This document shows positions 7,490 through 53,889 of a DNA stretch of 64,000 nt, piece by piece. A program made the translations under genes and the position numbers. The notes below the pieces were generated by a model that worked only from the letters and a program-made list of their open reading frames with translations, searched no databases and was not told the DNA's origin. Source of the DNA: Bacillota bacterium. Its GTDB lineage: Bacteria > Bacillota > Clostridia > Oscillospirales > CAG-382. Where the stretch lies: the NCBI GenBank assembly GCA_029550965.1, contig JAKPGJ010000006.1:1-64000 (forward strand). Direction: 5' to 3'. The stretch's first letter is position 1. Every line of letters begins with the position of its first letter.

Positions 7490-7605
7490 CCTTGCTTTTC
7501 TGCCGCCTAAATTGACTAAACCTTTAATTCTGATGACCCTCTTTCAATAATGTGTGTATATTCGCAGGCAAGCGGGCTTGCCTGTAAAATATTCTGCTAA
7601 AAACG

Positions 7606-10116: not shown

Positions 10117-10417
10117 TGCCGTTTTCCTCTTTCTATATGTCCATAATTTTACATAATACAAAAAAAGTTTAGCACAGCGCTATGTCTTTGTCAAGGCAAA
10201 GCGGGTAAATTTGGCGGTTTGTTCAGCCCTAAATATCGTACGCAAAATATATTAAAATAGAGCGATATATGAATAATGTTTAAAGCATTAAAAGGAGGGC
10301 GGCAATCTTTTTATTTTATGGCCGCTGACAGAAAAGAGATGAACGAAAGCGTAAAAAAAGCACAAACAGTATAAAAAACAGCAAATCGGATGAGCAATCC
10401 GATTAAATAAAAGAAAG

Positions 10418-15051: not shown

Positions 15052-15784
15052 AGAGCAGAAAGGCAGCGGCCGAGTTGCGTTTGACTATTCTTACGGCAAC
15101 AGCGAACTTTTCAGCGTTCAGGAAGCCTATAAGGCGATTCGAACCAACATCATACTTTCCGTCATCAAGGACGGCTGTAAGAAGATCGTCGTAACCAGCT
15201 CGCTGCAGGCCGAAGGAAAATCCACGACCTCCGTCAACATCGCCATTTCGCTGGCGCAGGCGTTCAACAAAGTGCTGTTCATCGACTGCGACCTGCGTCT
15301 TTCAAAGGTGCATAAAGCGCTCGGAATTGCAAGAGACCCCGGAATCACCAATATTTTAAGCGGTCTTGCTTCTATAGAGGAGTCCATTCAGCCGACGAAG
15401 TTTGAGAACCTTTTCGTCATTCCCGCCGGCATTCCGGCGCCGAACCCCTCCGAGATGCTGGCAAGCGCGAAGATGCAGCTGCTTCTCTCCAAACTCGAGA
15501 CCAAGTTTGATTATATTATCATGGATACGCCGCCGATCAACATTGTTTCGGACGCGCTGCCGCTCGCGAAGATTGCCGACGGCGTCATACTGGTCGTCAG
15601 AAGCCGGGTGACCACCTACGCCGACCTGGACAAAGCGGTAAAGGCGCTTCAGTTTATCGACGCGAAAATCATCGGCATGATTCTGAACGATTCGGCTGAA
15701 GAGAAAAACAAGCATTACAAGAACAACCGCTACGGTTACGGCTACGGCTACGGTTATAGCGGATATAACGAAAAAACGCGATAA
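15044..15784 (+). CDS. CpsD/CapB-family tyrosine kinase with Tyr-rich tail
   Basis: EAYKAIRTNI, Walker A-like SLQAEGKSTTSVN, LFIDCDLR, DYIIMDTPP; C-terminal YGYGYGYGYSGY. Confidence 0.92.
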   Translation: MAEEQKGSGRVAFDYSYGNSELFSVQEAYKAIRTNIILSVIKDGCKKIVVTSSLQAEGKSTTSVNIAISLAQAFNKVLFIDCDLRLSKVHKALGIARDPGITNILSGLASIEESIQPTKFENLFVIPAGIPAPNPSEMLASAKMQLLLSKLETKFDYIIMDTPPINIVSDALPLAKIADGVILVVRSRVTTYADLDKAVKALQFIDAKIIGMILNDSAEEKNKHYKNNRYGYGYGYGYSGYNEKTR

Positions 15785-15792
15785 AAACAAAC

Positions 15793-15820
15793 AGCGGACA
15801 GCTTTTGCTGTCCGCTTTAT
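15793..15820 (+). terminator. Convergent terminator
   Basis: AGCGGACAGC-TTTT-GCTGTCCGCT-TTATTTTTATTT. Confidence 0.8.
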
Positions 15821-15822
15821 TT

Positions 15823-16845
15823 TTATTTCCAGCCGGTGATGGAGCGTATTTTTTTGACCAGCAGCTTGGAAACGCGCATGTTCGCTCTGGTGTTCGGATG
15901 CCCGTTCGCGCCGGTTTCGCCGGGCATTTGGTTGATGCTCTCCACATACAGAAAGTGCACTTTCTCGTCGGTTTTGTTGCGTATCCTGACCGCTTCCTTA
16001 ATGGCGGGGACATACTTGTCGTTCATCATACCGTAAACCCAAATAATCTGCGCTTCCGGGTAAACGCCGCGAATGTCTTTAAGAAATTCTACGGCGGCCT
16101 CGGTAAAGGTCTGGTCGGGCACCGCTCCGCCGACATCGTTCGTGCCGGCGTTAATCACGACCACGTTCGGCGTCCATAACGAAAAATCCCAGGGTTCTCC
16201 CGCGCGGGAAGCGTACCGGAAGAAAATCGGAATCTCATTGTCCTTCTCGCCGTTGCAGTTGCAGACGATTCCCTTGCCGGATATGCAGATATAGCGCGCG
16301 TCCGCGTCCAGTTCCTTCGCGGTGAAATACGCGTACGTCATCGTGCTGTCCTGCTGGTAGGTATGGTAAGTAGTCTCGCTCGGTTCGGCGATCACCCCGT
16401 ACCCGCAGGTGATGGAATCCCCGTAAAATTCGATTTTACGCGGCTTGTCGAAAGGCGGAGCCATAAACTTCTGGTCTTTGCCGAAAAGGCTGATATCTTT
16501 AAAAAGAAGCGGAATCTCGCCCTCGGTGATTCGCAGCACCGTGACCCTGTGCCGCTTTTCGGGCAGGTTTTCATAAATAATCTTTTCTTTGCCGGTCGAA
16601 ACCGCAAAGCGCTGTTCCTTCCCGTCGACGAACACCTTGACGTATGCCGGTTCGTCGCAGGTAAACTCCCCGAACGACAGGATAAAGCCGCTTCCGAAGA
16701 AATTAAAGCTAATGCCGCTGTTGGACCAATCAAACGCAAGGCAGTCTTTTTTAACGGTATGGCGCCCCAAAATGCGCACGTACTTCCCGTTGTCCTCGCT
16801 GAGTTTGATCACGCCGTCTCCAAAAACGGGCAGTCTTCTTTCCAT
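15823..16845 (-). CDS. SGNH/GDSL esterase, CE2-like acetyl esterase
   Basis: N-terminal jelly-roll-like domain, FYGDSITCGYG, INAGTNDVGG, GANGHPN. Confidence 0.82.
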   Translation of the reverse strand: MERRLPVFGDGVIKLSEDNGKYVRILGRHTVKKDCLAFDWSNSGISFNFFGSGFILSFGEFTCDEPAYVKVFVDGKEQRFAVSTGKEKIIYENLPEKRHRVTVLRITEGEIPLLFKDISLFGKDQKFMAPPFDKPRKIEFYGDSITCGYGVIAEPSETTYHTYQQDSTMTYAYFTAKELDADARYICISGKGIVCNCNGEKDNEIPIFFRYASRAGEPWDFSLWTPNVVVINAGTNDVGGAVPDQTFTEAAVEFLKDIRGVYPEAQIIWVYGMMNDKYVPAIKEAVRIRNKTDEKVHFLYVESINQMPGETGANGHPNTRANMRVSKLLVKKIRSITGWK

Positions 16846-16895
16846 TTTTTATTTCCCCCACTCTCATCCTAAGGGGAAATATAACATATTTTTAA

Positions 16896-19403
<2,508 letters not shown>

Positions 19404-38119: not shown

Positions 38120-39883
38120 ATGAAAACAGGTGCAGGCCGTCCCAACCATCGAAATACAACATCGGTTATTGTTTGCTTTATGCTTGCTGTTTGCCTGGCG
38201 TTGGTTCTGTCAGGAATAGAGATACTCGCCTTGAAAAAGAACCGGGGCGAAATCCCGATTGAGAATTGGCAGTATGCCTGGGTGAAAAAGCCGGACGAGT
38301 ATATCTATGCCGAGAATAACTGGAAGCAAACGACAACCGGCAAAATAGAAAACGAAAACCGCAGCCGTTATCTGCACCTCCGCACCGAAATCGAGAGCGG
38401 CGAATCGACGAACATCTTGATAATCCGAAGCGGAAACAACCTGATGAACATAGACGTGGACGGCAAGCGCGTGCATGAGCAGCTCGGAGCCGACGAACTA
38501 TATTCGGGAACCTCCAAAATCGAGGTTATGCTCGAACCTTCGGACAAGGCGCATAAAATTGATATTTACCTCTATGCGCCGTCCGTACTGCGGTTTTCCG
38601 CCTTTCTAAAAAACACCGCCGCCGTTCAGCCGCGGGATATCGCGGGGATACTGCTGGGCGCAATTCTGTTCGGCATGTCGGTTGCGCTCCTGTTTGGAAG
38701 GAAGAACGGCAAACAAAAGAAAGCCGTCACGGCGGCGGGCGTGACCTGTCTGAGTTTGGGACTTTGCGCGGTCCTTGGTCAATCCGGCATATATATCGGG
38801 CAGTTTTCGGCGCCCGTTTTTTACAAAATATTGATATTGCTTTTTATGTTCGCGTCGATCGGCGTGCAGTATCTGGCTTTCGTGATGCTTGAAGCGCATC
38901 CAAAAATGAACTGGGTATTGAAGGTCAGCGCGTTTTTGCCGGTTTGCTTTATTGTGGCGCCGAACACTTCGTTTGCGCAGCTCATCCTTTGCATGTACAC
39001 AATCTGGTGCGCCGCCTGCGTTTTTATCTTGCTGGCCGTTATGTTTGCCGGCGGCGTGCCGTCTGGAACGGAAAAAAGAGCGGCAGTTGTATGTTTTTTG
39101 ACGGCCGCCGCGCTTCAAAGCCTATACTGGTTTTCCTATTTCATTCCATTTGACATAACGTTTATGCTGTCCGCCCTTATTGCAGCCGGGGGCGGCATCG
39201 TGGCTGCGGCGGCCGTTTGGTCCAGACAGACGATTATAGCGGACGAAAAAGAAGCCGATGTCAAAGCGGATTTGATTAAAAGAATACAGAAATACCTGTT
39301 TGAAAAAGCAGACACCAATAAAGGCCATCTCGAAAACGTTTCAAACTATGTCCGAGTCATATGCCGGCAAATGAAAATGCCGGAAAGCACGGTCGAAATG
39401 GTTGCCGACGCGGCATATCTGCACGACATTGGGAAGGTCGCTTTGCCTAAAGCGATTCTGAAAAAGGAAGAAGGCGTGGATAATAACGAGTACGAGCAGC
39501 TGCGCAGTCACGTTCTTTTCGGATACAATATTTTGATCGACCCGAGCGACCACTTTTTGCAGACGGCGGCGAATATCGCGATGTATCACCACGAAAGGTA
39601 TGACGGAAGCGGGTATTTGGGCAGAAAGGGCAACGAGATTGACCTGTTCTCCCGTATCACCTCGATTGCGGACACCTTTGACGCGCTGACCTCCGATCGC
39701 TCCTATAAAAAAGCGTGGAGTTTTGACGAGGCGTACGAATACATCAACCTGCATGCGGACGATTATTTTGATCCCGATCTTGTAAGGGTATTTAACGCCT
39801 GCCGTAAGGAGATTTTGGAAATTTATCAAAAAAGCCGGACGCAATCAATCAAAAATCCGGGCGTTGGCGAAGGATTACAATAA
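38120..39883 (+). CDS. Membrane-anchored HD-GYP domain protein (candidate c-di-GMP phosphodiesterase)
   Basis: Extracytoplasmic domain, about 7-8 TM segments, then YLHDIGKVALP ... HHERYDGSGYLGRKGNEIDLFSRITSIADTFDALTSDRSYK. Confidence 0.9.
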   Translation: MKTGAGRPNHRNTTSVIVCFMLAVCLALVLSGIEILALKKNRGEIPIENWQYAWVKKPDEYIYAENNWKQTTTGKIENENRSRYLHLRTEIESGESTNILIIRSGNNLMNIDVDGKRVHEQLGADELYSGTSKIEVMLEPSDKAHKIDIYLYAPSVLRFSAFLKNTAAVQPRDIAGILLGAILFGMSVALLFGRKNGKQKKAVTAAGVTCLSLGLCAVLGQSGIYIGQFSAPVFYKILILLFMFASIGVQYLAFVMLEAHPKMNWVLKVSAFLPVCFIVAPNTSFAQLILCMYTIWCAACVFILLAVMFAGGVPSGTEKRAAVVCFLTAAALQSLYWFSYFIPFDITFMLSALIAAGGGIVAAAAVWSRQTIIADEKEADVKADLIKRIQKYLFEKADTNKGHLENVSNYVRVICRQMKMPESTVEMVADAAYLHDIGKVALPKAILKKEEGVDNNEYEQLRSHVLFGYNILIDPSDHFLQTAANIAMYHHERYDGSGYLGRKGNEIDLFSRITSIADTFDALTSDRSYKKAWSFDEAYEYINLHADDYFDPDLVRVFNACRKEILEIYQKSRTQSIKNPGVGEGLQ

Positions 39884-39930: not shown

Positions 39931-42075
39931 TTGGAAATTTTACTGACCGGCATGCTTTCCTTTATCTCCGCCGGCTTCTGCAACAGACTTTGCAGCCGGC
40001 ATAAAGTCGTGCTGGCTTCCGACGATATCGATAAAAAAAATATAGGAAAAAAGGCCATACCGTTCGTCGTTCAGCAGAATGACGAAAAGCTGGCTAAAAT
40101 TTTCCATTCCTATAACTTTTCTACCGTTTTGTTCTTCTCGCCTTCCGCTGCCGGAATCCGGGAAAACCGGGGAGAACTGAGCAGGCTCGAAACCATCCTG
40201 CGTTTTTGCGCGGAGCATGAAGTAAAAAACGTTATCTACATATCTTCCGCTTCTCTTTATTCAAGAGAATCGAACTTCGATGAAAACGCCAAGCCCGAAC
40301 CCTGCGACAGCGTCGGCGTCGAGCTGGAGGCCTGCGAGCGCCTTTGCGAATTCTACCGGAAGAACGAAGGGCTGTCTATCCTCATCCTGCGCGTTCCGTA
40401 TCTTTACGGTTACGGCGAGAACGCTTCGGCGGTCGCAAACATGATTAAGCAGGCAATCGAACGCTCCGCGGTTCGGTTTGCGGGCAGCAGGGACCAGATC
40501 TGCGAGTTTCTCTCCGAAGAGGATTTCAGCGATCTGATTCTGAGAATCATCGACGACTGGCCGACGGAAAACGTCCTGAATGTGCCGGGCGGGTGCTCGT
40601 ACTCGTTTTCCGGTCTCGGCGTTGAGTTCATAAAACTGATGCCGACACTCAAAATCTCCTATTCGGGCAGAAGCGACACGGTGCCGGTTCCGGTCAATAC
40701 GGACCTTGTGCGCAGAGAGTACGACTGGATTCCGGTTGTCAATATCGCAGACGAACTTCCGCGGCTGATCCGGGAATACAGCAACCGGTTTCATCCCGAA
40801 AAGAGCGGCTTAAAACACCGCTTCGGGAAGTTTATCGCCAAAAACAGGCTGATTGTGATTCTTGCCGAAATTATTTTCGGCTATCTCATCACCGAAATGC
40901 TGAACAGTATGTCCCATACGATGGTTCAGTTCCAGTATATTGATTTTCGGCTTTTGTACGTTGTGCTGATCTCGACGATGCATGGGATTGTTCCGGGGAT
41001 GGCGGCGGCCGCACTGGTCTGCGTCTCGCTGATCATCGGCTTTTCGCAGCTGAACATCGACTGGGAGAGGCTGCTTTACAATCCCGAAAACTGGGTACCC
41101 TTCGCGTGCTATCTCATCGTCGCTTCCATTGCCGGCTACACGAAGGAAAGATATTCAAACGAGCTGAAATACTTAAAAACCGAGAACAGCGCGCTGGACG
41201 AACGCTATAAGTTCCTATACGAACTTTACCGGGAAGCGCTGAAAAACAAGGGCGAGTATAAAGCGCAGATTCTTTCGTACAGCGGCAGCTTCGGACGCAT
41301 TTACGAGGTCGCGCGCAGACTGAACAGCCTGCTGCCGGAGGTTATTTTCAAGGAATCGCTTGCATCGCTCGAAGATTTGCTGATGAACCAGACCATTTGC
41401 ATTTACACGATTTCGACGGACGCGAACTACGCCCGCCTTGCGGTATGTTCGCAGAAGCTGAATCAGAAAGTGCCGAAATCGTTAAAACTTGACGATTATG
41501 CCGAGATAATCGAGACGCTGCGCGATGGCGAGGTCTGGTGCAACAAAGACCAGAATCCTGATTATCCCGACTACTGCGCCGGAATATTCCGCAAGGACAA
41601 GCCGGTTGTGCTGATTATGATTCAAAAAGTCAAGTTCGAGCAGATGGCGATGTATTATCAGAACCTGATACGGATTTTGTGCGGTCTGATTCAGGTGGCG
41701 CTGATTCGAGCGTATGAGTACAACGAGAAATGGGAGAGCGAGCGGTATCTGCCCGGAACCAATATTATCGATAAAGCGCACTTCCGGCTTCTGCTTGACG
41801 CAAAAAATGAAATGGCTGAAAAGGAAATCGCGGAGTTTACGCTGATCCGCATTCTCTGCAGGCCGGAAGAGCGGGCAAGCGTCAGCGAAATACTGCTGAA
41901 CACGCTCCGAAGCACCGATTATATCGGAATCGGCGAAGACGACGAGCTGTACGCTTTGCTTTCTCAGGCGGGTCGCATGAATATTGACATTATCGCGCAC
42001 CGTCTGCGCGAAGCCGGCATCGAATTTGAAGTCACGGATCAACTGCCTGCCGGCGCGGAAACCGCTGCTGTTTAA
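39931..42075 (+). CDS. pelD: PelD-like c-di-GMP receptor with N-terminal degenerate SDR/epimerase-like domain
   Basis: N-terminal SDR-like (about 285 aa), TM block, GAF-like and degenerate GGDEF (GEDDELYALL) preceded by RSTD I-site; synteny with pelE/A/F/G. Confidence 0.83.
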   Translation: MEILLTGMLSFISAGFCNRLCSRHKVVLASDDIDKKNIGKKAIPFVVQQNDEKLAKIFHSYNFSTVLFFSPSAAGIRENRGELSRLETILRFCAEHEVKNVIYISSASLYSRESNFDENAKPEPCDSVGVELEACERLCEFYRKNEGLSILILRVPYLYGYGENASAVANMIKQAIERSAVRFAGSRDQICEFLSEEDFSDLILRIIDDWPTENVLNVPGGCSYSFSGLGVEFIKLMPTLKISYSGRSDTVPVPVNTDLVRREYDWIPVVNIADELPRLIREYSNRFHPEKSGLKHRFGKFIAKNRLIVILAEIIFGYLITEMLNSMSHTMVQFQYIDFRLLYVVLISTMHGIVPGMAAAALVCVSLIIGFSQLNIDWERLLYNPENWVPFACYLIVASIAGYTKERYSNELKYLKTENSALDERYKFLYELYREALKNKGEYKAQILSYSGSFGRIYEVARRLNSLLPEVIFKESLASLEDLLMNQTICIYTISTDANYARLAVCSQKLNQKVPKSLKLDDYAEIIETLRDGEVWCNKDQNPDYPDYCAGIFRKDKPVVLIMIQKVKFEQMAMYYQNLIRILCGLIQVALIRAYEYNEKWESERYLPGTNIIDKAHFRLLLDAKNEMAEKEIAEFTLIRILCRPEERASVSEILLNTLRSTDYIGIGEDDELYALLSQAGRMNIDIIAHRLREAGIEFEVTDQLPAGAETAAV

Positions 42076-42096: not shown

Positions 42097-42987
42097 ATGT
42101 GGTTTTTTTTGATATTTCTGATCGTACATATTTTAATCTGTATATTTCTGTTCGCCGCAGTCAAAACCGGCAACATCGCGGCGCCGCCGCAAATGCTGCC
42201 GATCGCGGTATTCGTCCCGGTCTGGGGCGTCGCTACGGTGCTGGTCTGCAGCAGGATGACGAAAAAAGGACTTGCTGCGACAAGAAACGCCGAGCTGGAC
42301 GACCTTATTCTGCACGCGGACGACTGGCGCAAGACCACCTTTATGGAGGAGAGAAGCGCGAAGAGCGTCGTGCCGCTCGAAGAGGCGATCCGAATTAACG
42401 ACGCGAAAATCAGACGCCAGCTGATGCTGGACATCATGCGCGAGGATCCGGCGGAGTATATCCGGCTGCTGCAGGAAGCGCGTTTGAACGACGATATCGA
42501 GGTCACCCATTATGCTTCTACCGCTATGATGGAGGTTCAGCGCAAGTTCGAAGTCGACATTCAGAAACAGGAAAAAGCGCTTCAGGCGAACCCAGACAGC
42601 AAAGAGGTTCTGGACGAATACCTTCAGCTATTGAAAAAATACATCGACAGCGGAATGCTCAAAGAAAACATGCTGGTCATACAGCGTATCCGATACGACA
42701 ACCTGCTAAAAAAGAAAATGACCGAGTATCCGAAAGAAAAACAGACGTATTTCGAAGCCGCGGACAATTACATAGAACTGGGATACTTCGGCGAGGCCGA
42801 GAAAATGGTCAATTATCTTGTCCGCAGATGGCCGCAGGACGAGAAAACCTGGATTTTGAAGCTAAAACTGTATTTTGAAAAACACGACAAGGCAAACTTT
42901 GAAGCTACGGTTTTAGAAATCAAAAAGAGAAAAGTGTATTTAAGCTCCCAGTACAAAGCCCTGCTTTCCTTCTGGGAAGCTCCCTAA
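42097..42987 (+). CDS. pelE: PelE-like TPR membrane protein
   Basis: Two N-terminal TM segments and helical TPR-like repeats; located between pelD and pelA-like genes. Confidence 0.7.
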   Translation: MWFFLIFLIVHILICIFLFAAVKTGNIAAPPQMLPIAVFVPVWGVATVLVCSRMTKKGLAATRNAELDDLILHADDWRKTTFMEERSAKSVVPLEEAIRINDAKIRRQLMLDIMREDPAEYIRLLQEARLNDDIEVTHYASTAMMEVQRKFEVDIQKQEKALQANPDSKEVLDEYLQLLKKYIDSGMLKENMLVIQRIRYDNLLKKKMTEYPKEKQTYFEAADNYIELGYFGEAEKMVNYLVRRWPQDEKTWILKLKLYFEKHDKANFEATVLEIKKRKVYLSSQYKALLSFWEAP

Positions 42988-43009: not shown

Positions 43010-44827
43010 ATGACGACTTCAGCAAAGCTCAGAATATTACTAATACCGTTTGTCGTTCTATCGTTACTGTCTTTACTGCTGCTTGCCGAAAGAATCGGCC
43101 TGAAGATAACGGCGGCCGACGAAGAGGTCATTTTTCTTCCGGACAGCGTAAAAAATACACCAAAAGCTGAGCAGGAAAAAGAATGTCTTATCCTGTTTGA
43201 CGGATCATCCGATTCCATGGTTGCCTTCAAAAAGCAGATGACGGACATTTTAGATATCATGCGAGTGGGTTATGACACAGTTGATGTCAACGGCAGGGAT
43301 ATACCCGATTTAAGCAAATACAGAACGGTTGTTATTACGTTCAGCAAGCTCGAAAAGATTCAAAACAGCATTTTGCATGTTTTCGAGTGGGTAAAAAACG
43401 GCGGCAGGCTGATGTTCAGCTGCGCGCCGGAACCGTCAATCGTCTTTCAAGTGGTCAAATATAAGATGGGTATTTGGGAATCCGGCATTGATTATGTATA
43501 CTGTAGCGGTGTAAAAGTTGTTTCGGATTTTATGATCGGCGCAAAAGGTGAAACATATCAGTGGTCCACATCTTGGGATTCATCATTGGCAGTAACGCTG
43601 CAGGAAAGTTGTAAAGTACATGTCGTTTCCCTGAGCGACAACCCAACACCCATGGTTTGGGAATATGACTATGGGGCAGGCAGAGTCGTCGTTAACAACC
43701 ATTATATTTTAGAAAAGGTTTCCAGAGGACTGCTTGCCGCTTCATACACGCTGCTCGAGGACGTCATCGCTTATCCGGTGATCAATGCGTCAACCTTTTT
43801 TATAGACGATTTTCCATCTCCGATTCCGCAGGTCGAGTCCGAGTATATCAAAAGCTATGGACGGACCATCGACAGCTTCTACATAAACGTTTGGTGGCCG
43901 GATATGCTTGAGCTGTCCCGAAAGTACGGTTTTACCTATACGGGCGGCATCATCGAGGATTATAATGAATCCACAAAATCTCCTTTTATAAGAAACACGA
44001 ATACAAGGCAGTTTTTGGACCTGGGCGGAATGCTTTTGAAAAATGGAGGAGAAATATGCCTGCACGGCTACAACCATCAGCCGCTGGTCGCACAGAATTT
44101 TGACTTCCAGGGCAAATATACCTACAACAAATGGAGAAACATGGACGAGATGACGTTGGCGCTCAACGAACTGCTCGATTTTACCAAGTCATTATACCCG
44201 GACGCGAAAATATCCGTCTATGTTCCGCCTTCCAATATATTGTCCGAAGAAGGCAGGGCTGTGCTGACCACAAGAATTCCGAACATCCGCTGCATCGCCT
44301 CTCTCTATCTTATAGAGGATGTCGAGTATGAGCAGGAGTTTGATGTTAGTCCGGACGGTATCATTAATCTTCCGCGTGTTGTTTCGGGCTATATCATAGA
44401 CAATTATATGAAGTGGGCCGCGATAAATGCGCTGAATCTATATTATGTCAACTCGCATTTCATTCACCCGGACGACGTGCTCGATGTTGACCGCGGCGCC
44501 GAACTGGGCTGGGAATTTATTAAGAACAGCTTCGACAGTTATTTAAACTGGCTGTACACGACCGCGCCCAACATTCGGAGCATGAACGCCAGCCGCGCTG
44601 CTGCGGAAGTTGAGCGCTATGACTATTTGCGCGTAAGAAGAACCGTCAGCGAAAACGAATACAAATTGTCGCTGAGCGGATTTTACGACTATGCTTATTT
44701 GATGTTGCGCATAAATAACGGAACGCCCGGTACGGTAAAGGGCGGCAGTCTGGAAAAGCTGGAAGGCAACCTTTATGTACTTCACGCTACCTCGTCAGAG
44801 GTCACGATAGAAATTCAAAAAAACTGA
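43010..44827 (+). CDS. DUF2194 / PelA deacetylase-like protein
   Basis: N-terminal TM; FIDDFPSP (DD), CLHGYNHQPL (HxxxH) NodB-like motifs; pel synteny; no hydrolase domain apparent. Confidence 0.75.
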   Translation: MTTSAKLRILLIPFVVLSLLSLLLLAERIGLKITAADEEVIFLPDSVKNTPKAEQEKECLILFDGSSDSMVAFKKQMTDILDIMRVGYDTVDVNGRDIPDLSKYRTVVITFSKLEKIQNSILHVFEWVKNGGRLMFSCAPEPSIVFQVVKYKMGIWESGIDYVYCSGVKVVSDFMIGAKGETYQWSTSWDSSLAVTLQESCKVHVVSLSDNPTPMVWEYDYGAGRVVVNNHYILEKVSRGLLAASYTLLEDVIAYPVINASTFFIDDFPSPIPQVESEYIKSYGRTIDSFYINVWWPDMLELSRKYGFTYTGGIIEDYNESTKSPFIRNTNTRQFLDLGGMLLKNGGEICLHGYNHQPLVAQNFDFQGKYTYNKWRNMDEMTLALNELLDFTKSLYPDAKISVYVPPSNILSEEGRAVLTTRIPNIRCIASLYLIEDVEYEQEFDVSPDGIINLPRVVSGYIIDNYMKWAAINALNLYYVNSHFIHPDDVLDVDRGAELGWEFIKNSFDSYLNWLYTTAPNIRSMNASRAAAEVERYDYLRVRRTVSENEYKLSLSGFYDYAYLMLRINNGTPGTVKGGSLEKLEGNLYVLHATSSEVTIEIQKN

Positions 44828-44855: not shown

Positions 44856-46286
44856 TTGCGAATTTGTATGATTCTTGAGGGCTGTTATCCGTATGTGAGA
44901 GGCGGCGTATCGAGCTGGATGCACGCGTACATCGGAGCAATGCCGCAGCATGAGTTCGTGCTTTGGGTAATAGCCGAGTCCCGCGAAATGAAAGGCAAAT
45001 TCAAATATGAAATGCACCCGAACGTAAAAGAAATTCATGAAGTCTTTTTATCGGACGCGCTCAAGTTAAGGCCGAAAAAAGGCTTGGCGAAGTATAAGTT
45101 TACCGAAGAAGAAATAGCGGAACTGAAAAAACTGATCGCCTGCGAGAACCCGTCATGGCCCATTTTGTTTCGAACCTATAAAACAAAGAAGGTCAACGCC
45201 GTCGATTTCTTGATGGGCGAGGAGTTTCTTGAAATTCTTCTGGAAATGTGCCGGGAGAAATACCCCTTCGTTCCGTTTGCGGAGCTGTTTCATACGGTCC
45301 GCTCGATGCTGGTCCCCATGCTTTTCCTGATGGGGCAGGACGTGCCGCAGGCGGACATTTACCACGCAACCTCAACCGGATATGGCGGACTGCTCGGCGC
45401 GATGGGCGGCTGGAGTTCCAACAGACCGTTTATTGTTACCGAACACGGCATTTACACCCGTGAGCGTGAGGAGGAGATTCTGCGCGCAAAATGGGTTCCG
45501 CCCTATTTTAAGCAGCAGTGGATTTCGCTTTTCCATATGCTGTCGCAGTGCGCTTATGACAACGCGGTCACCGTAACATCGCTGTTCCCGCGCGCGGCGG
45601 AAACGCAGATCGAGCTGGGCTGTCCCCCTTATAAATGCAGAGTCATCCGAAACGGCATTCACATTGAGAACTTTATAAACATACCGCCCAAAGAGGAGAA
45701 CGGCTATATCGACATCGCGGCGATTGTGCGTCTTTCCCCGATTAAGGATATCAAGACCATGATTTACGCTTTCGTAGAATTGAAAACAAAGGTGCCGAAC
45801 GCCCGGCTGCATATTTTGGGCGACACCGACGACGAGGATTACGCAAGAGAATGTGTAGAGCTGGTCAAACAGCTCGATGTAAAGGATGTCTTTTTCGTAG
45901 GCAACACCAACGTGCCGGAATATCTGAAAAATATTGACTTTACGGTACTGTCGAGCATTTCGGAAGGTCAGCCGCTCGCGGTGCTGGAGTCCTTTGCCGC
46001 CGGCAGACCCTGCGTCACGACGGATGTCGGCTGCTGCCGGGAGCTATTGAGCGGGTATGCGGACGATAACTTCGGAAAGGCGGGCATTTATGTACCGCCG
46101 ATGCATGCGGAAATGCTCGCTGCCGGCATGGAACTTCTCTGCAACCGAAAGGACGTGCGCGATTCGATGGGAAAAGCCGGCAGGGAGCGCGTTAAAAAGT
46201 ACTATGTGCATACGGATATGATTCGGAGATATCTTGAGAACTACGAGGAGGCGCTGTCGCAGTGGCAGGCATTGGATTTGAGCTGA
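44856..46286 (+). CDS. pelF: PelF-like GT4 glycosyltransferase
   Basis: MRICMILEGCYPYVRGGVSSWMHAYI...HATSTGYGGLLG...VITEHGIYTREREEEI-type motif; SISEGQPLAVLESFAAGRPCVTTDVG. Confidence 0.94.
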   Translation: MRICMILEGCYPYVRGGVSSWMHAYIGAMPQHEFVLWVIAESREMKGKFKYEMHPNVKEIHEVFLSDALKLRPKKGLAKYKFTEEEIAELKKLIACENPSWPILFRTYKTKKVNAVDFLMGEEFLEILLEMCREKYPFVPFAELFHTVRSMLVPMLFLMGQDVPQADIYHATSTGYGGLLGAMGGWSSNRPFIVTEHGIYTREREEEILRAKWVPPYFKQQWISLFHMLSQCAYDNAVTVTSLFPRAAETQIELGCPPYKCRVIRNGIHIENFINIPPKEENGYIDIAAIVRLSPIKDIKTMIYAFVELKTKVPNARLHILGDTDDEDYARECVELVKQLDVKDVFFVGNTNVPEYLKNIDFTVLSSISEGQPLAVLESFAAGRPCVTTDVGCCRELLSGYADDNFGKAGIYVPPMHAEMLAAGMELLCNRKDVRDSMGKAGRERVKKYYVHTDMIRRYLENYEEALSQWQALDLS

Positions 46287-47767
46287 AAAAACTGTTCGCA
46301 AAAAAAGGCCTGTTCGCTTCCATAAAAGCCTACGGATATGCGGGCGTTATTTGCGCCGGACCCATGCTGCTCGGCGTTATCCTCCTCCTCGGCGCGAGGT
46401 TTATAACCGGGTATGCCGGCGCGAGCGGACATGAAAGAGAGCTTTTAAACTCCATGCTTACCTATGCTTTGCTCGCATCGCTGACGCTTACAAGCCTTTT
46501 CTCAATGGCAACCACAAGAGCGATTGCGGACCTGTATTATCTAAAGCAGCTCGAACGCATTATGCCTACGTTTTACGGAAGCACGGCGGTTATGCTTGTC
46601 ATCGGCGTGCCGGGATACGGGATTTTCCTGCTGTTTTCAGGAGTTTCGTTCATATATAAGGTATTAAGTCTTGTATACTTCGCCGTTTTGATCGTAGTAT
46701 GGACAGAAATTAACTATCTTACGGCAATCAAGAATTACAAAGAGATTCTCGCAACCTTTTTCATCTCGCTGCTTTGCGCTTTGCTGTTGGGCGCTTTATT
46801 CTCTCTCCGGTTGGATATAGAGCCGATTACCGGCATGTTTATCGGCATTATCATCGGCTACGGCATCATGATGGTTCGGTATTTTATCGTAATATACAGG
46901 TATTTCCCGGAGGGCAAGGGAACCTGTATGCACTTTTTGAGGTGGTTCGACAATTATCCGCAGCTGACGGTTATCGGTTTTTTCATCACCATCGGTCTGT
47001 TCGGTCATCTCGTCATTATGTGGGGCAGCCGAATCGGCGTACAGGTGCAGGGGTTGTTTTACGGCGCGCCCGTATATGATATCCCGGCGCTTTTGGCGTT
47101 TTTGTCGATATTGATTACCACCGTGAATTTCGTAACTTCCGTTGAAGTGCGGTTTTATCCCTGCTACCGTGATTATTTCAGCCTTTTCAACGATAAAGGC
47201 TCGCTTGAGGATATAGAGGACGCAGAAAAGAATATGCTGGTTGTTCTGCGCGAGGAGTTAATCTACTTAGCGCAAAAGCAGGTGTTTACCACCGTGTTCT
47301 TTATTATCTTGGGAACCCTGCTGCTGCCGGTATCCGGATTGGGGTTTACGCGCGAAATGCTGGGCATATACCGCGTTCTCTGCGTCGGCTACGCCTTTTA
47401 CGCGATTGGAAACAGCATCATGCTGATTCAGCTGTATTTTGCCGACAATAAAAACGCTTTAAAAAGCGCGATACATTTTATGATTTGCAGCGTAGTTCTA
47501 ACCTTTATATTTAAAGATATGTCTGCGGCGTTTTACGGCTTTGGATTTCTTATCGGCGGCGCGGTGTATTTCTTGTCCGCTCTGATAAAACTGAATTCGT
47601 ATTTAAAGAAGATTAAATATCATGTGCTTAGCTGTCAACCGGTGTTTAAAGCTGAAACGAGAGGTATATTCACACCGCTTTGTGACTGGCTGGAAGCGCG
47701 TTATATCAGGAATGCTCAAAAATCGAAATATTCAACCAATACGTATTATGGTGAATTTAAAATTTAA
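46262..47767 (+). CDS. pelG: PelG-like polysaccharide transporter (MOP flippase superfamily)
   Basis: MAGIGFELKKLFAKKGLFASIKAYGYAGVICAGPMLLG; about 12 TM; overlaps pelF. Confidence 0.94.
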   Translation: MAGIGFELKKLFAKKGLFASIKAYGYAGVICAGPMLLGVILLLGARFITGYAGASGHERELLNSMLTYALLASLTLTSLFSMATTRAIADLYYLKQLERIMPTFYGSTAVMLVIGVPGYGIFLLFSGVSFIYKVLSLVYFAVLIVVWTEINYLTAIKNYKEILATFFISLLCALLLGALFSLRLDIEPITGMFIGIIIGYGIMMVRYFIVIYRYFPEGKGTCMHFLRWFDNYPQLTVIGFFITIGLFGHLVIMWGSRIGVQVQGLFYGAPVYDIPALLAFLSILITTVNFVTSVEVRFYPCYRDYFSLFNDKGSLEDIEDAEKNMLVVLREELIYLAQKQVFTTVFFIILGTLLLPVSGLGFTREMLGIYRVLCVGYAFYAIGNSIMLIQLYFADNKNALKSAIHFMICSVVLTFIFKDMSAAFYGFGFLIGGAVYFLSALIKLNSYLKKIKYHVLSCQPVFKAETRGIFTPLCDWLEARYIRNAQKSKYSTNTYYGEFKI

Positions 47768-47806: not shown

Positions 47807-49585
47807 TTGAAACATAAAACCGCGTCAGTTTTTAAAATCGTTGCGTTCTCTATACTCATTGCTATATTGAATTCTACTTTGTGCAGTTGTTTTATTACGT
47901 CAAATGATTCTATAACTGATGATAATGAAATTACAAACGAAGTTGAGAAAATGAAAGCAAATGAAATGATCATACAGGATAATAAAAGCATCTATCGGTA
48001 TGACGTTGAGGACTCGATTGTTACAATGTATCTTACGGTAAGAAAGGGGAACTCCACCGAGAATACCGATCATACTTGGGATGAAGTAAACAGTCTTTCG
48101 ATTTTCGACTATGAATTGCTTGGCGTAGAACGTTTTGGAGTGGAAGCCATTCTAAAAATAGGCGACGAGAACGGTCCTCTGCCTGGAGAACTGGGGTATG
48201 GTGAGACGGTGCCGAATGCGATCGTTCGTGTCAGAGGCAATACGGCGTCAAGAAATCCTCAGAAATCATACAAAATTGAATTGAAAAAGGGCAAAGGTAC
48301 TTGGCGTGAGCAAAGAACAATCATATTAAACAAACATCCATTTGATCAAACTCGTGTTATGAACAAGCTCTATTTCGATCTATTAAGAGGCGTTCCAAAT
48401 ATGGTGAGCGCTCGCACGCAGTTTGTTCATTTGTACGTAAAAGATGAGACGGGACCTGACGCAGCAACGTCGGTATATAAGGATTATGGTCTTTTTACGC
48501 AGATAGAGCAGTATAATTCAAGATATCTGCGAAACCATGGTCTTGACGAGAATGGGCAACTGTATAAAGCAGAGATGTTTGAATTCTTCAGATATGAAGA
48601 TGCGATTAAGTTGAAATCTGATCCCGGTTACAGTGTTAAGGATTTCGAAAAAGTACTGGAAATCAAAGGAAACGATAATCATACCAAGTTAATCGCAATG
48701 CTTGAAGAATTGAATAATTATTCAATCGATATAGAAGAAGTGTTTGAGAAGTATTTTTACATAGAAAATTACTTTACATGGCTGGCTTATAACATACTCA
48801 TGGGGAACCTTGACACGATAAACAGAAATTTCTACCTATACAGCCCGACAAATTCTACGAAATTTTATTTTATTCCCTGGGACAGTGACGGCTCGTTTTC
48901 AAGGGTTAGGAATGAGTACTTAGGTATTCCAAATGAGTACGGACATCAAATAGGAATCAGTAATTACTGGGGTTGTGTTTTGCATGAAAGGGTATTGTCT
49001 AAGCAAAAATACCGTGATATGCTCTCAAGTAAAATAGAAGAATTAAAAGACTATTTAACAAAAGAAAAGATTTCGAACCTGCTGAACAGTTACAAAGCTG
49101 TGATAAAAAAATATCTTTATTCTATGCCGGATATTTTGTATTATTCCGTCACCGAGGATCAGTTTGACGGTTTATACGAGGCTATTTCAAATGGCGTCGA
49201 GTTAAACTATCAGTTGTATCTGGAAAGCATCAAGCGTCCGATGCCGTTTTTTATAAATAAACCCATCATAGAAAATGGAAAAATAAAGTACTCATGGCAG
49301 GTTGCATTTGATTTTAATGGAGAAGACATTAAATATGATGTAGAGATTGCTCGGAACTTAGCGATGACGGACTTAATCGCTTCCTTTAAAGGGATAGAAA
49401 TCCCAGTGGTAGAAACCGAGATGTTGCCGATGGGGCAGTATTTTGTTCGCGTAAAAGCGATTAATGAATCGGGCGAAGCACAGTATGCAATGGATTACTA
49501 TGTGTCCGAATATTCTAGGCATTACGGCATATATGCTTTTTATATTCAACCGGATGGTACGATTGAAACAGTACACACAACGTAA
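47807..49585 (+). CDS. CotH-type protein kinase, secreted/lipoprotein
   Basis: Signal peptide with Cys; VRGNTASRNPQKSYKIELKK, GNLDTINRNFYLYSP, FYFIPWDSDGSF. Confidence 0.88.
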   Translation: MKHKTASVFKIVAFSILIAILNSTLCSCFITSNDSITDDNEITNEVEKMKANEMIIQDNKSIYRYDVEDSIVTMYLTVRKGNSTENTDHTWDEVNSLSIFDYELLGVERFGVEAILKIGDENGPLPGELGYGETVPNAIVRVRGNTASRNPQKSYKIELKKGKGTWREQRTIILNKHPFDQTRVMNKLYFDLLRGVPNMVSARTQFVHLYVKDETGPDAATSVYKDYGLFTQIEQYNSRYLRNHGLDENGQLYKAEMFEFFRYEDAIKLKSDPGYSVKDFEKVLEIKGNDNHTKLIAMLEELNNYSIDIEEVFEKYFYIENYFTWLAYNILMGNLDTINRNFYLYSPTNSTKFYFIPWDSDGSFSRVRNEYLGIPNEYGHQIGISNYWGCVLHERVLSKQKYRDMLSSKIEELKDYLTKEKISNLLNSYKAVIKKYLYSMPDILYYSVTEDQFDGLYEAISNGVELNYQLYLESIKRPMPFFINKPIIENGKIKYSWQVAFDFNGEDIKYDVEIARNLAMTDLIASFKGIEIPVVETEMLPMGQYFVRVKAINESGEAQYAMDYYVSEYSRHYGIYAFYIQPDGTIETVHTT

Positions 49586-49605
49586 TATAGAAATGGGGAT
49601 GAATC

Positions 49606-50325
49606 ATTATTAAAACCGAAGAAGCCTATAAAAGAAGTCTTTACCGGCATGAGTTGAAGTATTTGATCAATTATAAAGACAGAGACATTCTTGTCAAAAG
49701 GCTCGAGGGTTTGATTCGGAGAGACACCCACGCCGAAAAAGGTTATTACAAAGTGCGCAGCCTGTACTTCGACGATTACTGGAATGGCGCGTATGAAGAA
49801 AAGCTGATGGGCGTTTCGGGACGCAACAAGTACCGGATCCGAATCTACAACGACTCGGACAGCGTGATCCATCTCGAGCGAAAAACCAAAACGGGAAGCT
49901 ATATTTACAAGAAAAGCGCGCCGCTGACAAGAAAAGATGTCGAGAAAATTCTGGACGGGGATTACAGCTTTTTGCTGTATCATCCGCAGCCGCTGTGTCA
50001 GGAGTTCTACGTGCAGTGCATCTCGCGCGTGATGCGGCCGCGGGTGGTGGTGGATTACGAGCGCGAGCCGTTCGTGTTCGAAGCGGGCGACGTCCGAATC
50101 ACCTTCGACTCGGACGTTCGGGCGTCCTCCCTAAATTTCTCCATTTTTGACCCGGCGCTTCCCACCAGCAGCGTTTTGGAGCCGGGAAAACTTGTTCTTG
50201 AGGTGAAGTTTACCGAGTTCCTGCCCAACCTTATCCGCGAAGCGCTTCCCGCCGAAGCCGCGGAATTGTCGGCGGTATCCAAGTACGTTCTTTGCTGCGA
50301 AAAAACCGATTATATCTATTCGTAG
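49606..50325 (+). CDS. VTC-domain (triphosphate tunnel) protein, probable non-AUG start
   Basis: YRHELKYLI, VRSLYFDDYWNGAYEEKLMG, RNKYRIRIYN, IHLERKTK, MRPRVVVDYEREPF, LVLEVKFTEFLP. The ORF track begins at TTG 49654, inside the conserved RHELK motif. Confidence 0.85.
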   Translation: MIKTEEAYKRSLYRHELKYLINYKDRDILVKRLEGLIRRDTHAEKGYYKVRSLYFDDYWNGAYEEKLMGVSGRNKYRIRIYNDSDSVIHLERKTKTGSYIYKKSAPLTRKDVEKILDGDYSFLLYHPQPLCQEFYVQCISRVMRPRVVVDYEREPFVFEAGDVRITFDSDVRASSLNFSIFDPALPTSSVLEPGKLVLEVKFTEFLPNLIREALPAEAAELSAVSKYVLCCEKTDYIYS

Positions 50326-50361
50326 GATCAAAACTGACATACGGAAAGGAAATTGCATATT

Positions 50362-51039
50362 ATGACTTTTAAGGATATTCTCAAGAACTTTAATGACGAA
50401 ACCTTTAAACAGTACTTTAACTGGCTCACCATAAGCGAAACGCTGATCGTGCTGGTTGTTGCGCTCGTAATGGGGCTGCTCATCTGTTTTATCTACACCA
50501 AGTTTTTCAGAGGCGTCGTATATAGCCGGACATTTTCGATTACGCTCATCGGCATGTGCGTCATGACCAGCATGGTAACGCTGGCTATCAGCTCGAATAT
50601 CGTAATCTCCCTCGGTATGGTCGGCGCGCTGTCTATCGTACGTTATCGTACCGCCATCAAGGAACCGCTTGACCTGCTCTATCTGTTTTGGTCGATAACG
50701 ACCGGAATCACCGTGGGCGCAAAGATGTATGTCCTTTCCGTAATCGCCGCCGTTATTATGATTCTCATCATTCTACTGTTCAGCCGCAGGTCCATTACAG
50801 GCAGGGTTTACATAATGGTAGTTCATTATGTCGGCGATCTTGCGGGCGACATGATTCGCAAAGCCTTAGGCAGCGCAAAATACCGTATAAAATCCAAGAC
50901 GGTCCGCAAGGATGCGTCGGAAATGGCGATCGAGATTTTCGCAAAAGGCGACAGCATGGCCTTTGTGGAAAAAATCCGCGCGATCGACAATGTATTGGAT
51001 GTGACGATTATCCAGTATGACGGCGAGTACCACGGCTAA
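50362..51039 (+). CDS. DUF4956 membrane protein
   Basis: Multiple TM then LGMVGALSIVRYRTAIKEPLDLLYLFWSITTGITVGA signature; follows VTC gene. Confidence 0.87.
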   Translation: MTFKDILKNFNDETFKQYFNWLTISETLIVLVVALVMGLLICFIYTKFFRGVVYSRTFSITLIGMCVMTSMVTLAISSNIVISLGMVGALSIVRYRTAIKEPLDLLYLFWSITTGITVGAKMYVLSVIAAVIMILIILLFSRRSITGRVYIMVVHYVGDLAGDMIRKALGSAKYRIKSKTVRKDASEMAIEIFAKGDSMAFVEKIRAIDNVLDVTIIQYDGEYHG

Positions 51040-51040
51040 T

Positions 51041-52435
51041 ATGACGTTGAAAAAGTTAATCGCCCTGATTGTCGCTGTTACGCTGGGCGGCGGAACCATG
51101 AGCGGGGGAGCTATGAAGAAATTCTTCTTGGGTTTTAAATGGTCAAAAACGGTTTCCTTTGAACAAAGCGGCGAGGTCGTCGTCAATCCGATGACCGGCT
51201 TTGCCCCGATCGCGGAAAATACGAAAGTCGCGGAGAAGTATTCACTGGTTTACGTGGACGTCACCTGGCGGGAACTTGAACCCGAGGAGGGCGTTTTCGC
51301 CTTTGAAGAAATTGACCGCAGCAACCATCTGGAGCGCTGGCGCGCGGACGGAAAAAGGGTGGTGTTCCGTTTTGTGCTGGATAAGCCCGGCAGCGAAGCG
51401 CACATGGACATCCCAGACTGGCTGTATGAAAAGACCGGCGGCGCCGGATATGCGTATGATCATGAATACGGCAAAGGCTTTTCGCCGGATTATACCCATC
51501 CCGACGTCATAGAAGGCCACGCGAAGGCGATACGGGCGCTCGGCGCGTATTACGGCAAAGACGATTTTTTTGCCTATATCGAGCTCGGCAGTCTGGGGCA
51601 TTGGGGCGAATGGCATGTAAAATACGACGCGGGCGTTCCGCGGCTGCCGAATGAGGAAATTCGGGACAAGTATATTCAGCCCTATCTGACCGCGTTCCCG
51701 AATTCGCAGATTCTGATGCGCAGACCGTTTACGCCCTGCAAGGTGTACGGCTTCGGGGTTTACAACGATATGACCGGCCACGCCGAAGCGACCGAAGAAT
51801 GGCTGGGCTGGATCAACTACGGCGGAAAATACAGTCAAACCGGAGAGCCAAACGTGATTCAGGCGGTGCCGGAGATATGGAACAAAGCCGCGGTGGGCGG
51901 CGAGCTGACCAGCTCGATTTCCATGGACTGGCTGTTGCGGTTCCATTTGAACGAAACGCTAAATCTGATCAAAAGGTCGCATATGACTTTTATAGGGCCG
52001 AAAATACCGGAGGGCGACATTTATGCGGAAAGCGCCGGCGAGATTCTGAAAAACCTCGGCTACCGCTACCGCATCGAAAAGGTGAGCGCGCGGGAGACGC
52101 TGGACGGCAAAAAGCTGAAAGTCAAGTTGCACTGGATCAACGACGGCGTCGCGCCGCTATACTGGGACTGGGACGTCTATCTGTACCTTCTGGACAGCGA
52201 GAACAGTATTGTTGAGAAAAGCCAGGTGGATATTAAACTCAGCGAGCTTACCGAAGGTAAAACAATTGTCACGCAGACGCTTCTGGATATCGCGAACAAA
52301 CAGGATAATTCCTACAAGCTGTGCATCGGCATTATAGACCCGAACACGGGCGAACCGGCGGTACAATTCGCGATGGATGCCGAACGGATCGGCAACATGA
52401 CGGTTTTGGCCGAATGGAACGACTTGACGAACTAA
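51041..52435 (+). CDS. DUF4832 protein (glycoside hydrolase-like TIM barrel plus Ig-like domain)
   Basis: NPMTGFAPIAENT...LVYVDVTWRELEPEEGVFAFE...YIELGSLGHWGEWH... Confidence 0.8.
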   Translation: MTLKKLIALIVAVTLGGGTMSGGAMKKFFLGFKWSKTVSFEQSGEVVVNPMTGFAPIAENTKVAEKYSLVYVDVTWRELEPEEGVFAFEEIDRSNHLERWRADGKRVVFRFVLDKPGSEAHMDIPDWLYEKTGGAGYAYDHEYGKGFSPDYTHPDVIEGHAKAIRALGAYYGKDDFFAYIELGSLGHWGEWHVKYDAGVPRLPNEEIRDKYIQPYLTAFPNSQILMRRPFTPCKVYGFGVYNDMTGHAEATEEWLGWINYGGKYSQTGEPNVIQAVPEIWNKAAVGGELTSSISMDWLLRFHLNETLNLIKRSHMTFIGPKIPEGDIYAESAGEILKNLGYRYRIEKVSARETLDGKKLKVKLHWINDGVAPLYWDWDVYLYLLDSENSIVEKSQVDIKLSELTEGKTIVTQTLLDIANKQDNSYKLCIGIIDPNTGEPAVQFAMDAERIGNMTVLAEWNDLTN

Positions 52436-52563: not shown

Positions 52564-53889
52564 ATGAAAAACAGGATGATGCAAAAAACGCTTCTCATTT
52601 TACTGGCGGCGATAACAGCCTCTTTTATTTTCACCGCGTGCGGGCAGTCGGACGTTTCGGAATCCGCATCCGCCGCTTCCAGCGCGCCCCAAAGCGGAAA
52701 CACTTCCTCCGCGGCGCCGGCGAGCTTTCATGACCTGACCGGCGGCAGCTATGACGCGAAGACCGAGCCGCCCGTGATTACCGAATACCGCACGGTCGAT
52801 GACGGCAGGGCGGTATATGCTGGAACCTGCGAGGAGGGCGCGACCGTCTATGCGGTAAAGGACGAAAAGATTATTGCCGCAAGCAGGTCGCATTACGGCA
52901 GCTTTCTTTTTGAGATTGCGGTTCATGAAAACGAGAACCCGCTGGAGTTTTCCATATACGCGAAGCGCGACGACAAGGCGCTGAGCGACCCGGTCCCGGC
53001 GCAGGCGGCGTATTATACCGACTACAAAGGCATTTCCGACTGGGTATGGGTCGGCAAAGATTTTCACCTGTTCTTCAGCGCGACCTATGACAATTACATG
53101 CGAAAAGACACTTTAAACAGCCGTCAGTATGAGCGGGCAAAGAGCACGATTTCCGAGCGCGTTCAGTGGCTAAACAACAACCTCGGCGCGAAGACGATTT
53201 ATATTCTCGTGCCCAACCCGAATGAGATTTACGGCGAGTATATGCCGGATATCGGCAAACAGCCGGACAAAGAGTCGCTGCACGACCAGACCGCGCGACT
53301 GCTTTCCGAAGCGGGCGCGGTCGTGATCGATATGAAGCCGATTTTGGAACAGCACAAGAACGACGCGTTTGAGATTTACCACCGCACCGACAGTCACTGG
53401 ACCGAGTACGCGGCCTACTTCGCGTATCAGGAGCTGTTCAATTATATCGCTAAGGATTTTCCGGCGAGCGCGCCCCGACCGATCGAGGATTTCGGATTCT
53501 CAAACGAACGCCGGCAGGCGGGCGATTTATATACCGATTTGAGCATGCACGTGGAAAACCTGTATGAAACCTCGGTATATTCCCGCTTGAAATTCCCGAC
53601 GCCGGTCGATATCCCGAAATACAAAAGCGACATTTCAACCCTAATCGCCGACGAGCCGACGCAGGAGCGGACCTTTGAAAATCCCGACGGCGCGGGAAAG
53701 CCGAACGTCATCATTCTCCGCGATTCCTATTCGATTATGATGTTCGACTATATCGCCGAGCGCTGCGCGGAAACCACCTTGCGCGCGATGTGGGATTTCA
53801 CCTTCGACAGGGAGCTTTTCAAGCGCAAAAACGTCGATTACGTCATTTACATTGTCTGCGATATGAACCTGAAAAATCTCTACAAATAG
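52564..53889 (+). CDS. Lipoprotein with AlgX/AlgJ-like SGNH (DHHW) domain, candidate O-acetyltransferase/esterase
   Basis: Lipobox FTACGQS; Ser-rich linker; YHRTDSHWTEYAAYFAYQEL and ILRDSYSIMMFDYIAERC. Confidence 0.75.
   Translation: MKNRMMQKTLLILLAAITASFIFTACGQSDVSESASAASSAPQSGNTSSAAPASFHDLTGGSYDAKTEPPVITEYRTVDDGRAVYAGTCEEGATVYAVKDEKIIAASRSHYGSFLFEIAVHENENPLEFSIYAKRDDKALSDPVPAQAAYYTDYKGISDWVWVGKDFHLFFSATYDNYMRKDTLNSRQYERAKSTISERVQWLNNNLGAKTIYILVPNPNEIYGEYMPDIGKQPDKESLHDQTARLLSEAGAVVIDMKPILEQHKNDAFEIYHRTDSHWTEYAAYFAYQELFNYIAKDFPASAPRPIEDFGFSNERRQAGDLYTDLSMHVENLYETSVYSRLKFPTPVDIPKYKSDISTLIADEPTQERTFENPDGAGKPNVIILRDSYSIMMFDYIAERCAETTLRAMWDFTFDRELFKRKNVDYVIYIVCDMNLKNLYK

Follow-up and report, generated by a model that had tools for sequence, protein, structure and literature searches.

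A CotH-VTC-DUF4956 gene trio at the end of a clostridial Pel operon belongs to a cell-surface module usually found away from Pel genes

The 3' end of a Pel operon from a clostridial member of the Bacillota carries genes for a CotH-type kinase, a VTC-domain protein and a DUF4956 membrane protein, hereafter the trio. This raises the question of whether the three serve the polysaccharide next to which they are encoded or belong to something more general. The window, that is the whole stretch of 64,000 nucleotides that was analysed, contains on its + strand a complete Pel operon of the Gram-positive type with pelDE-ADA-FG in order. It starts with pelD, which bears an N-terminal epimerase-like domain (39931..42075; Pfam Epimerase, 3e-13), and continues with a pelE-like gene (42097..42987) named from its position and from homologues at the corresponding position of six further Pel loci. 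It goes on with pelADA, encoding a deacetylase-like DUF2194 protein (43010..44827; Pfam DUF2194, 8e-170), the glycosyltransferase gene pelF (44856..46286; NCBIfam PelF, 6e-101) and pelG (46262..47767; Pfam PelG, 3e-130).

Four contiguous + strand genes follow pelG and close the operon. They encode a CotH-type kinase, predicted to be a lipoprotein, with a C-terminal FN3 domain (47807..49585; Pfam, 2e-66), a putative VTC-domain polyphosphate polymerase of uncertain start (about 49606..50325; Pfam, 4e-35), a DUF4956 protein with an MgtC-like membrane domain and a cytoplasmic ACT-like domain (50362..51039; Pfam, 3e-10) and a DUF4832 protein homologous to the Pel-degrading glycoside hydrolase SIR_1591 (51017..52435; Pfam, 7e-17). 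The initial annotation had placed CotH, VTC and DUF4956 in this order and strand directly after pelG, which the Pfam and NCBIfam matches confirm, and its family names and the Pel context of this trio stand. It had missed the DUF4832 gene, which overlaps that of DUF4956 and is the fourth member of a published set. Two further + strand genes flank the operon: an HD-domain protein of c-di-GMP-degrading type, with an HD_5 match, lies immediately 5' of pelD (38120-39883), and an AlgX-like SGNH acetyltransferase directly 3' of DUF4832 (52564-53889). DHHW/AlgX-like proteins are also found beside non-Pel trios in loci L073 and L075, and polymer acetylation may therefore belong to the set.

The arrangement is known. 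For clostridia and streptococci, Whitfield 2020 (PMC7112168) described an accessory set that goes with an extended PelD: cotH, a polyphosphate polymerase gene, DUF4956 and DUF4832, which directly adjoin pelDEADAFG. The window has the same four families in the same order and place after pelG, together with the extended PelD and its epimerase domain, and is a further example of this published layout. In Streptococcus intermedius the counterparts are SIR_1594 (CotH), SIR_1593 (polyphosphate polymerase domain), SIR_1592 (MgtC/ACT, the DUF4956 protein) and SIR_1591, an active hydrolase of the DUF4832 type; each has been deleted and none is needed for Pel (PMC12345266, 2025). In that study, deletion of CotH gave less Pel and deletion of DUF4956 more, and in artificial sputum the aggregation of both mutants dropped by more than half; no change in aggregation or Pel was reported for the VTC deletion. 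Both papers regard the set as bound to Pel, and the authors of the second failed in their own analyses to find the trio arrangement outside the Pel locus (PMC12345266). Along with a report on Clostridium perfringens (PMC11677781), these were the only relevant papers in the open-access literature searched for polyphosphate with CotH or DUF4956.

On the contrary, most of the trios found here are not beside Pel. Two samples were used, 40 relatives of the window genome and a draw of 300 genomes from the phylum. In the latter, 52 DUF4956 loci were found and 44 were read; a CotH gene was counted when it lay within 1.5 kb on the same strand, and CotH and Cthe_2159 calls were checked with Pfam. VTC was adjacent in 44/44 of these loci and CotH in 26/44, and of the 26 trios only two adjoin Pel while 24 do not. 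At the genome level, DUF4956 was present in 44 genomes of the draw, a convincing PelG in 10 and both in three. This association is at chance level (3/10 PelG genomes against 41/290 others, Fisher p 0.17). Similarly, the trio stands at only two of the nine PelG loci with sufficient flanks, the window counted. Among the 40 relatives, PelG was found in four, each time with the trio, and eight more trios had no Pel alongside. The window's own genome holds a second, Pel-free trio on contig 36 (CotH 15693-16601, VTC 16696-17343, DUF4956 17498-17776).

Beyond the phylum, the evidence is thin and comes from three control genomes and a small number of single-cell and plasmid records. Among named examples that are free of Pel, plasmid pNP95 of Pseudobutyrivibrio xylanivorans carries CotH-VTC-DUF4956 in the same order among glycosyltransferase genes, and a Planococcus maritimus plasmid also carries the trio; a PelG search found none in either record. 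Taken together, the trio is a widespread cell-surface module that usually lies away from Pel genes. The published statement that it does not occur outside the Pel locus (PMC12345266) does not hold, nor do these counts support the Pel-specific character given to the trio in the initial annotation.

Several loci are of interest for their neighbours. In the Pel-free trio on contig 36 of the window's own genome (locus L014, 5279-10062), the CotH of 1133 aa bears a CHB_HEX domain and four Lamin Tail Domains; Lamin Tail Domain proteins likewise adjoin VTC in L079 and L080. A Pelagibacteraceae single-cell contig (L036, 6801-10702) encodes, one after another, DUF4956, a CotH plus beta-helix protein and VTC. 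In Sinorhizobium meliloti pSymA (L060, 6398-8774) DUF4956 follows a caspase-domain protein, and no VTC was found nearby. In L058 and L077, VTC-DUF4956-CotH is accompanied by genes for a roughly 700-aa protein and a HEAT-repeat protein and by one more gene, which in L058 is annotated as glycosyltransferase. This content resembles that of C. perfringens NELoc-2, a non-Pel cluster with polyphosphate polymerase, CotH kinase, HEAT-repeat and glycosyltransferase genes in whose description DUF4956 is not named (PMC11677781).

The constant part of the module is the pairing of VTC with DUF4956. In addition to the phylum draw, the two adjoin in 30/30 loci of the relatives, and by genome they coincide in 25 of 26 cases (Fisher p 6e-10). 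The secreted partner of this obligate pair is CotH or, in 11 of the 44 loci of the phylum draw, a Cthe_2159 surface protein; both partners were found once (L068). A quick IQ-TREE analysis of VTC plus DUF4956 indicates at least five changes between CotH and Cthe_2159, and the gene order itself varies between CotH-VTC-DUF4956 and VTC-DUF4956-CotH. CotH and DUF4956 also tend to occur together in the 40 relatives (DUF4956 in 20/24 genomes with CotH versus 5/16 without, p 0.001; by genus, p 0.001), in tests that consider kinship up to genus. Four of the 24 CotH-bearing relatives have no DUF4956, one of these genomes being 53% complete, and in 10 of the 11 relatives' VTC-DUF4956 pairs that have no adjoining partner, a CotH is encoded elsewhere in the genome.

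How did such a module come to lie in the Pel operon? On the same tree, Pel-linked rows group together, except L085, which has left Pel, and L038, whose placement is uncertain; the latter Pel locus has a tandem pair of CotH genes (6908-10316). Since constraining the Pel-linked rows to one clade was not rejected (p 0.375), the sample would allow a single recruitment by Pel, and the module was perhaps recruited to Pel once. The initial annotation had further noted that the CotH gene is richer in A+T than its neighbours, and the gene-by-gene check bears this out: its GC is 0.38 and its GC3 0.40, against 0.46-0.54 and 0.54-0.68 for the neighbours, and the drop starts and stops with the gene boundaries. 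The separate recruitment of CotH drawn from it is rejected. The window CotH shares 44-53% identity with the CotHs that occupy this position in five other Pel loci, in parallel with PelG (47-58%), versus only 24-28% with the non-Pel CotHs compared, and most CotHs of these five loci show little or no AT shift relative to their neighbours. As this CotH is orthologous to those of other Pel loci, orthologous replacement from an AT-richer relative would fit the low GC better.

The AF2 model of the window CotH (pLDDT 86) matches Bacillus cereus CotH (5jd9) with an E-value of 4.5e-16 and a TM score to the target of 0.80, and the catalytic residues D336, N341 and D359 are present. Across 36 CotHs, D336 is invariant, D359 nearly so and N341 is found in 28. 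The N-terminus is hydrophobic in all 36, and a lipobox-like motif was seen in 10, eight of them from Pel loci. The window protein itself has an N-terminal hydrophobic stretch followed by a lipobox-like LCSC, and its Pel-linked orthologues have a clear lipobox. Judged from these signals, CotH is extracytoplasmic and the Pel-linked ones look like lipoproteins. It has the fold and catalytic residues of the spore-coat kinase (5jd9/5jda) but differs from it as a predicted lipoprotein with FN3 that adjoins polyphosphate genes rather than CotB/CotG.

The open frame of VTC begins ATC ATT ATT at 49603-49611, preceded by a GGGG stretch, and contains no ATG, GTG or TTG before the conserved RHELKY motif, whereas orthologues have an ATG a few codons ahead of the same motif. 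This points to a rare ATT start codon or to a one-base or other small sequence error; the start is probably ATT. A TTG-initiated frame at 49654 was discarded as the VTC gene, as the conserved RHELKY domain start lies upstream of it.

The encoded enzyme resembles the yeast polyphosphate polymerase Vtc4. A profile of 50 VTC relatives matches yeast Vtc4 with an E-value of 2.9e-20, and among solved structures VTC matches only Vtc chains strongly. All Vtc4 tunnel residues checked are retained in the alignment, with counterparts for R196, K200, R264, R266, E279, K281, K294, Y359, R361, R373, E426, K428, S457 and K458. Among them, R264, R266 and E426, whose change inactivates yeast VTC (PMC9911596), correspond to R77, R79 and E199 of the window protein. 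Hydrolases of the tunnel family have an acidic patch of four glutamates (PMC4641920). Two of its positions could be mapped: the first is Arg, as in Vtc4 and not Glu as in the hydrolases, and the second is Glu, which is Thr in Vtc4. The polyphosphate connection made in the initial annotation is supported by this Vtc4-type active site. Moreover, PPK1 was absent from all 25 genomes of the window organism's family, so that VTC may be the only long-chain polyphosphate maker there, as judged by PPK1.

The pairing of such an enzyme with a membrane protein is reminiscent of the yeast VTC complex, in which the Vtc4 tunnel domain, of the same fold family and with the same active-site residues, is combined with a Vtc1/Vtc3 membrane channel. 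Unlike the yeast complex, the window VTC has no SPX domain, and a comparison of DUF4956 with Vtc membrane subunits in the PDB gave no sequence match. DUF4956 most likely starts at the ATG at 50362, and its AF2 model (pLDDT 87) consists of membrane helices and a C-terminal domain. Between helices, a short loop carries R94-x-R96, which is invariant. The C-terminal domain matches the folds of ACT domains and 2lqj (E 2e-3 to 4e-3; TM to target 0.56-0.75) and resembles that of mycobacterial MgtC. With the MgtC profile, the window protein gives an E-value of 0.021, which is below the cut-off, and 28 of 46 DUF4956 proteins match weakly (best E 3e-4), in agreement with the weak relation seen by others (PMC12345266). 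When compared with solved structures, the membrane part matched no channel, the only matches being to ACT-like domains.

The preferred reading, to which we give a probability of about 45%, is that VTC-DUF4956 is a membrane polyphosphate synthase and translocase serving the secreted CotH, an older free-standing module that the Pel operon took over. In the cytoplasm, VTC would polymerise ATP into polyphosphate. DUF4956 would anchor VTC at the membrane and pass the chain out or control its passage, while its ACT-like domain may sense a metabolite, by analogy with yeast VTC and its membrane and SPX parts. CotH, as a lipoprotein kinase outside the membrane, would act with or on polyphosphate at the surface where Pel emerges. 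That polyphosphate is made, crosses the membrane and is used by CotH is what we infer. It appears quite improbable that the exported chain, made by VTC and passed by DUF4956, is itself the phosphoryl donor of the extracytoplasmic CotH, the source of which has been called an open question (PMC7821199).

The strongest objection to the synthase and translocase is the S. intermedius VTC mutant, for which no change was reported (PMC12345266); a simple line from VTC through DUF4956 to CotH predicts three like phenotypes. Furthermore, B. subtilis CotH phosphorylates with ATP in vitro (PMC7821199) and a search of its genome found no VTC and no DUF4956; the four CotH-bearing relatives that lack DUF4956, and the membrane part that resembles no solved channel, also count against it.

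Some of these data would suit the proposal of Whitfield 2020 (PMC7112168), in which CotH, with ordinary nucleotides as donors, phosphorylates Pel proteins or a surface protein and so controls the synthesis of Pel or assembly at the surface, and VTC-DUF4956 is a loosely related passenger. The CotH deletion phenotype in S. intermedius, which the VTC deletion does not share in that report (PMC12345266), is consistent with it, as are the use of ATP by the B. subtilis enzyme and the retained catalytic residues. However, VTC and DUF4956 accompany CotH at many Pel-free loci, which argues that they are no passengers. The export signal of CotH also speaks against it: nucleotides are expected to be scarce outside the cell. 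As a whole, this regulatory role appears rather unlikely.

It is unlikely, too, that VTC-DUF4956 is an MgtC-like intracellular device for phosphate or magnesium stress, whose adjacency to secreted proteins would reflect co-regulation only. The weak MgtC matches and the mycobacterial-type C-terminal domain of DUF4956 would agree with such a device, as would the two-component systems that adjoin many trios (response regulators make up 11/95 neighbours), but the partner beside the pair is mostly exported and comes from two unrelated families. Finally, deposition of polyphosphate by VTC-DUF4956 as the anionic partner of a partly deacetylated, cationic Pel, with CotH as anchor or primer, is quite unlikely. 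The deposition idea goes back to the initial annotation, and in its favour are the apparently active VTC polymerase, the deacetylase-like product of pelADA and the Pfam naming of the alternative partner Cthe_2159 as carbohydrate-binding, but most VTC-DUF4956 pairs are distant from any Pel gene and the S. intermedius VTC mutant still aggregates (PMC12345266).

The new finding is that the trio does not constitute a Pel module, which corrects the published view of its occurrence only beside Pel. The functional question now concerns a general surface module rather than biofilm polysaccharide. In lineages without PPK1, this module combines a Vtc4-like polymerase with a single membrane protein and a secreted protein of either of two kinds. 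Two questions become testable in simple hosts, namely whether bacteria have a VTC-like polyphosphate exporter and what the donor of a secreted CotH kinase is. If polyphosphate were indeed this donor, a polyphosphate-driven surface phosphorylation system would exist in several phyla and would explain the phosphate source of secreted CotH kinases.
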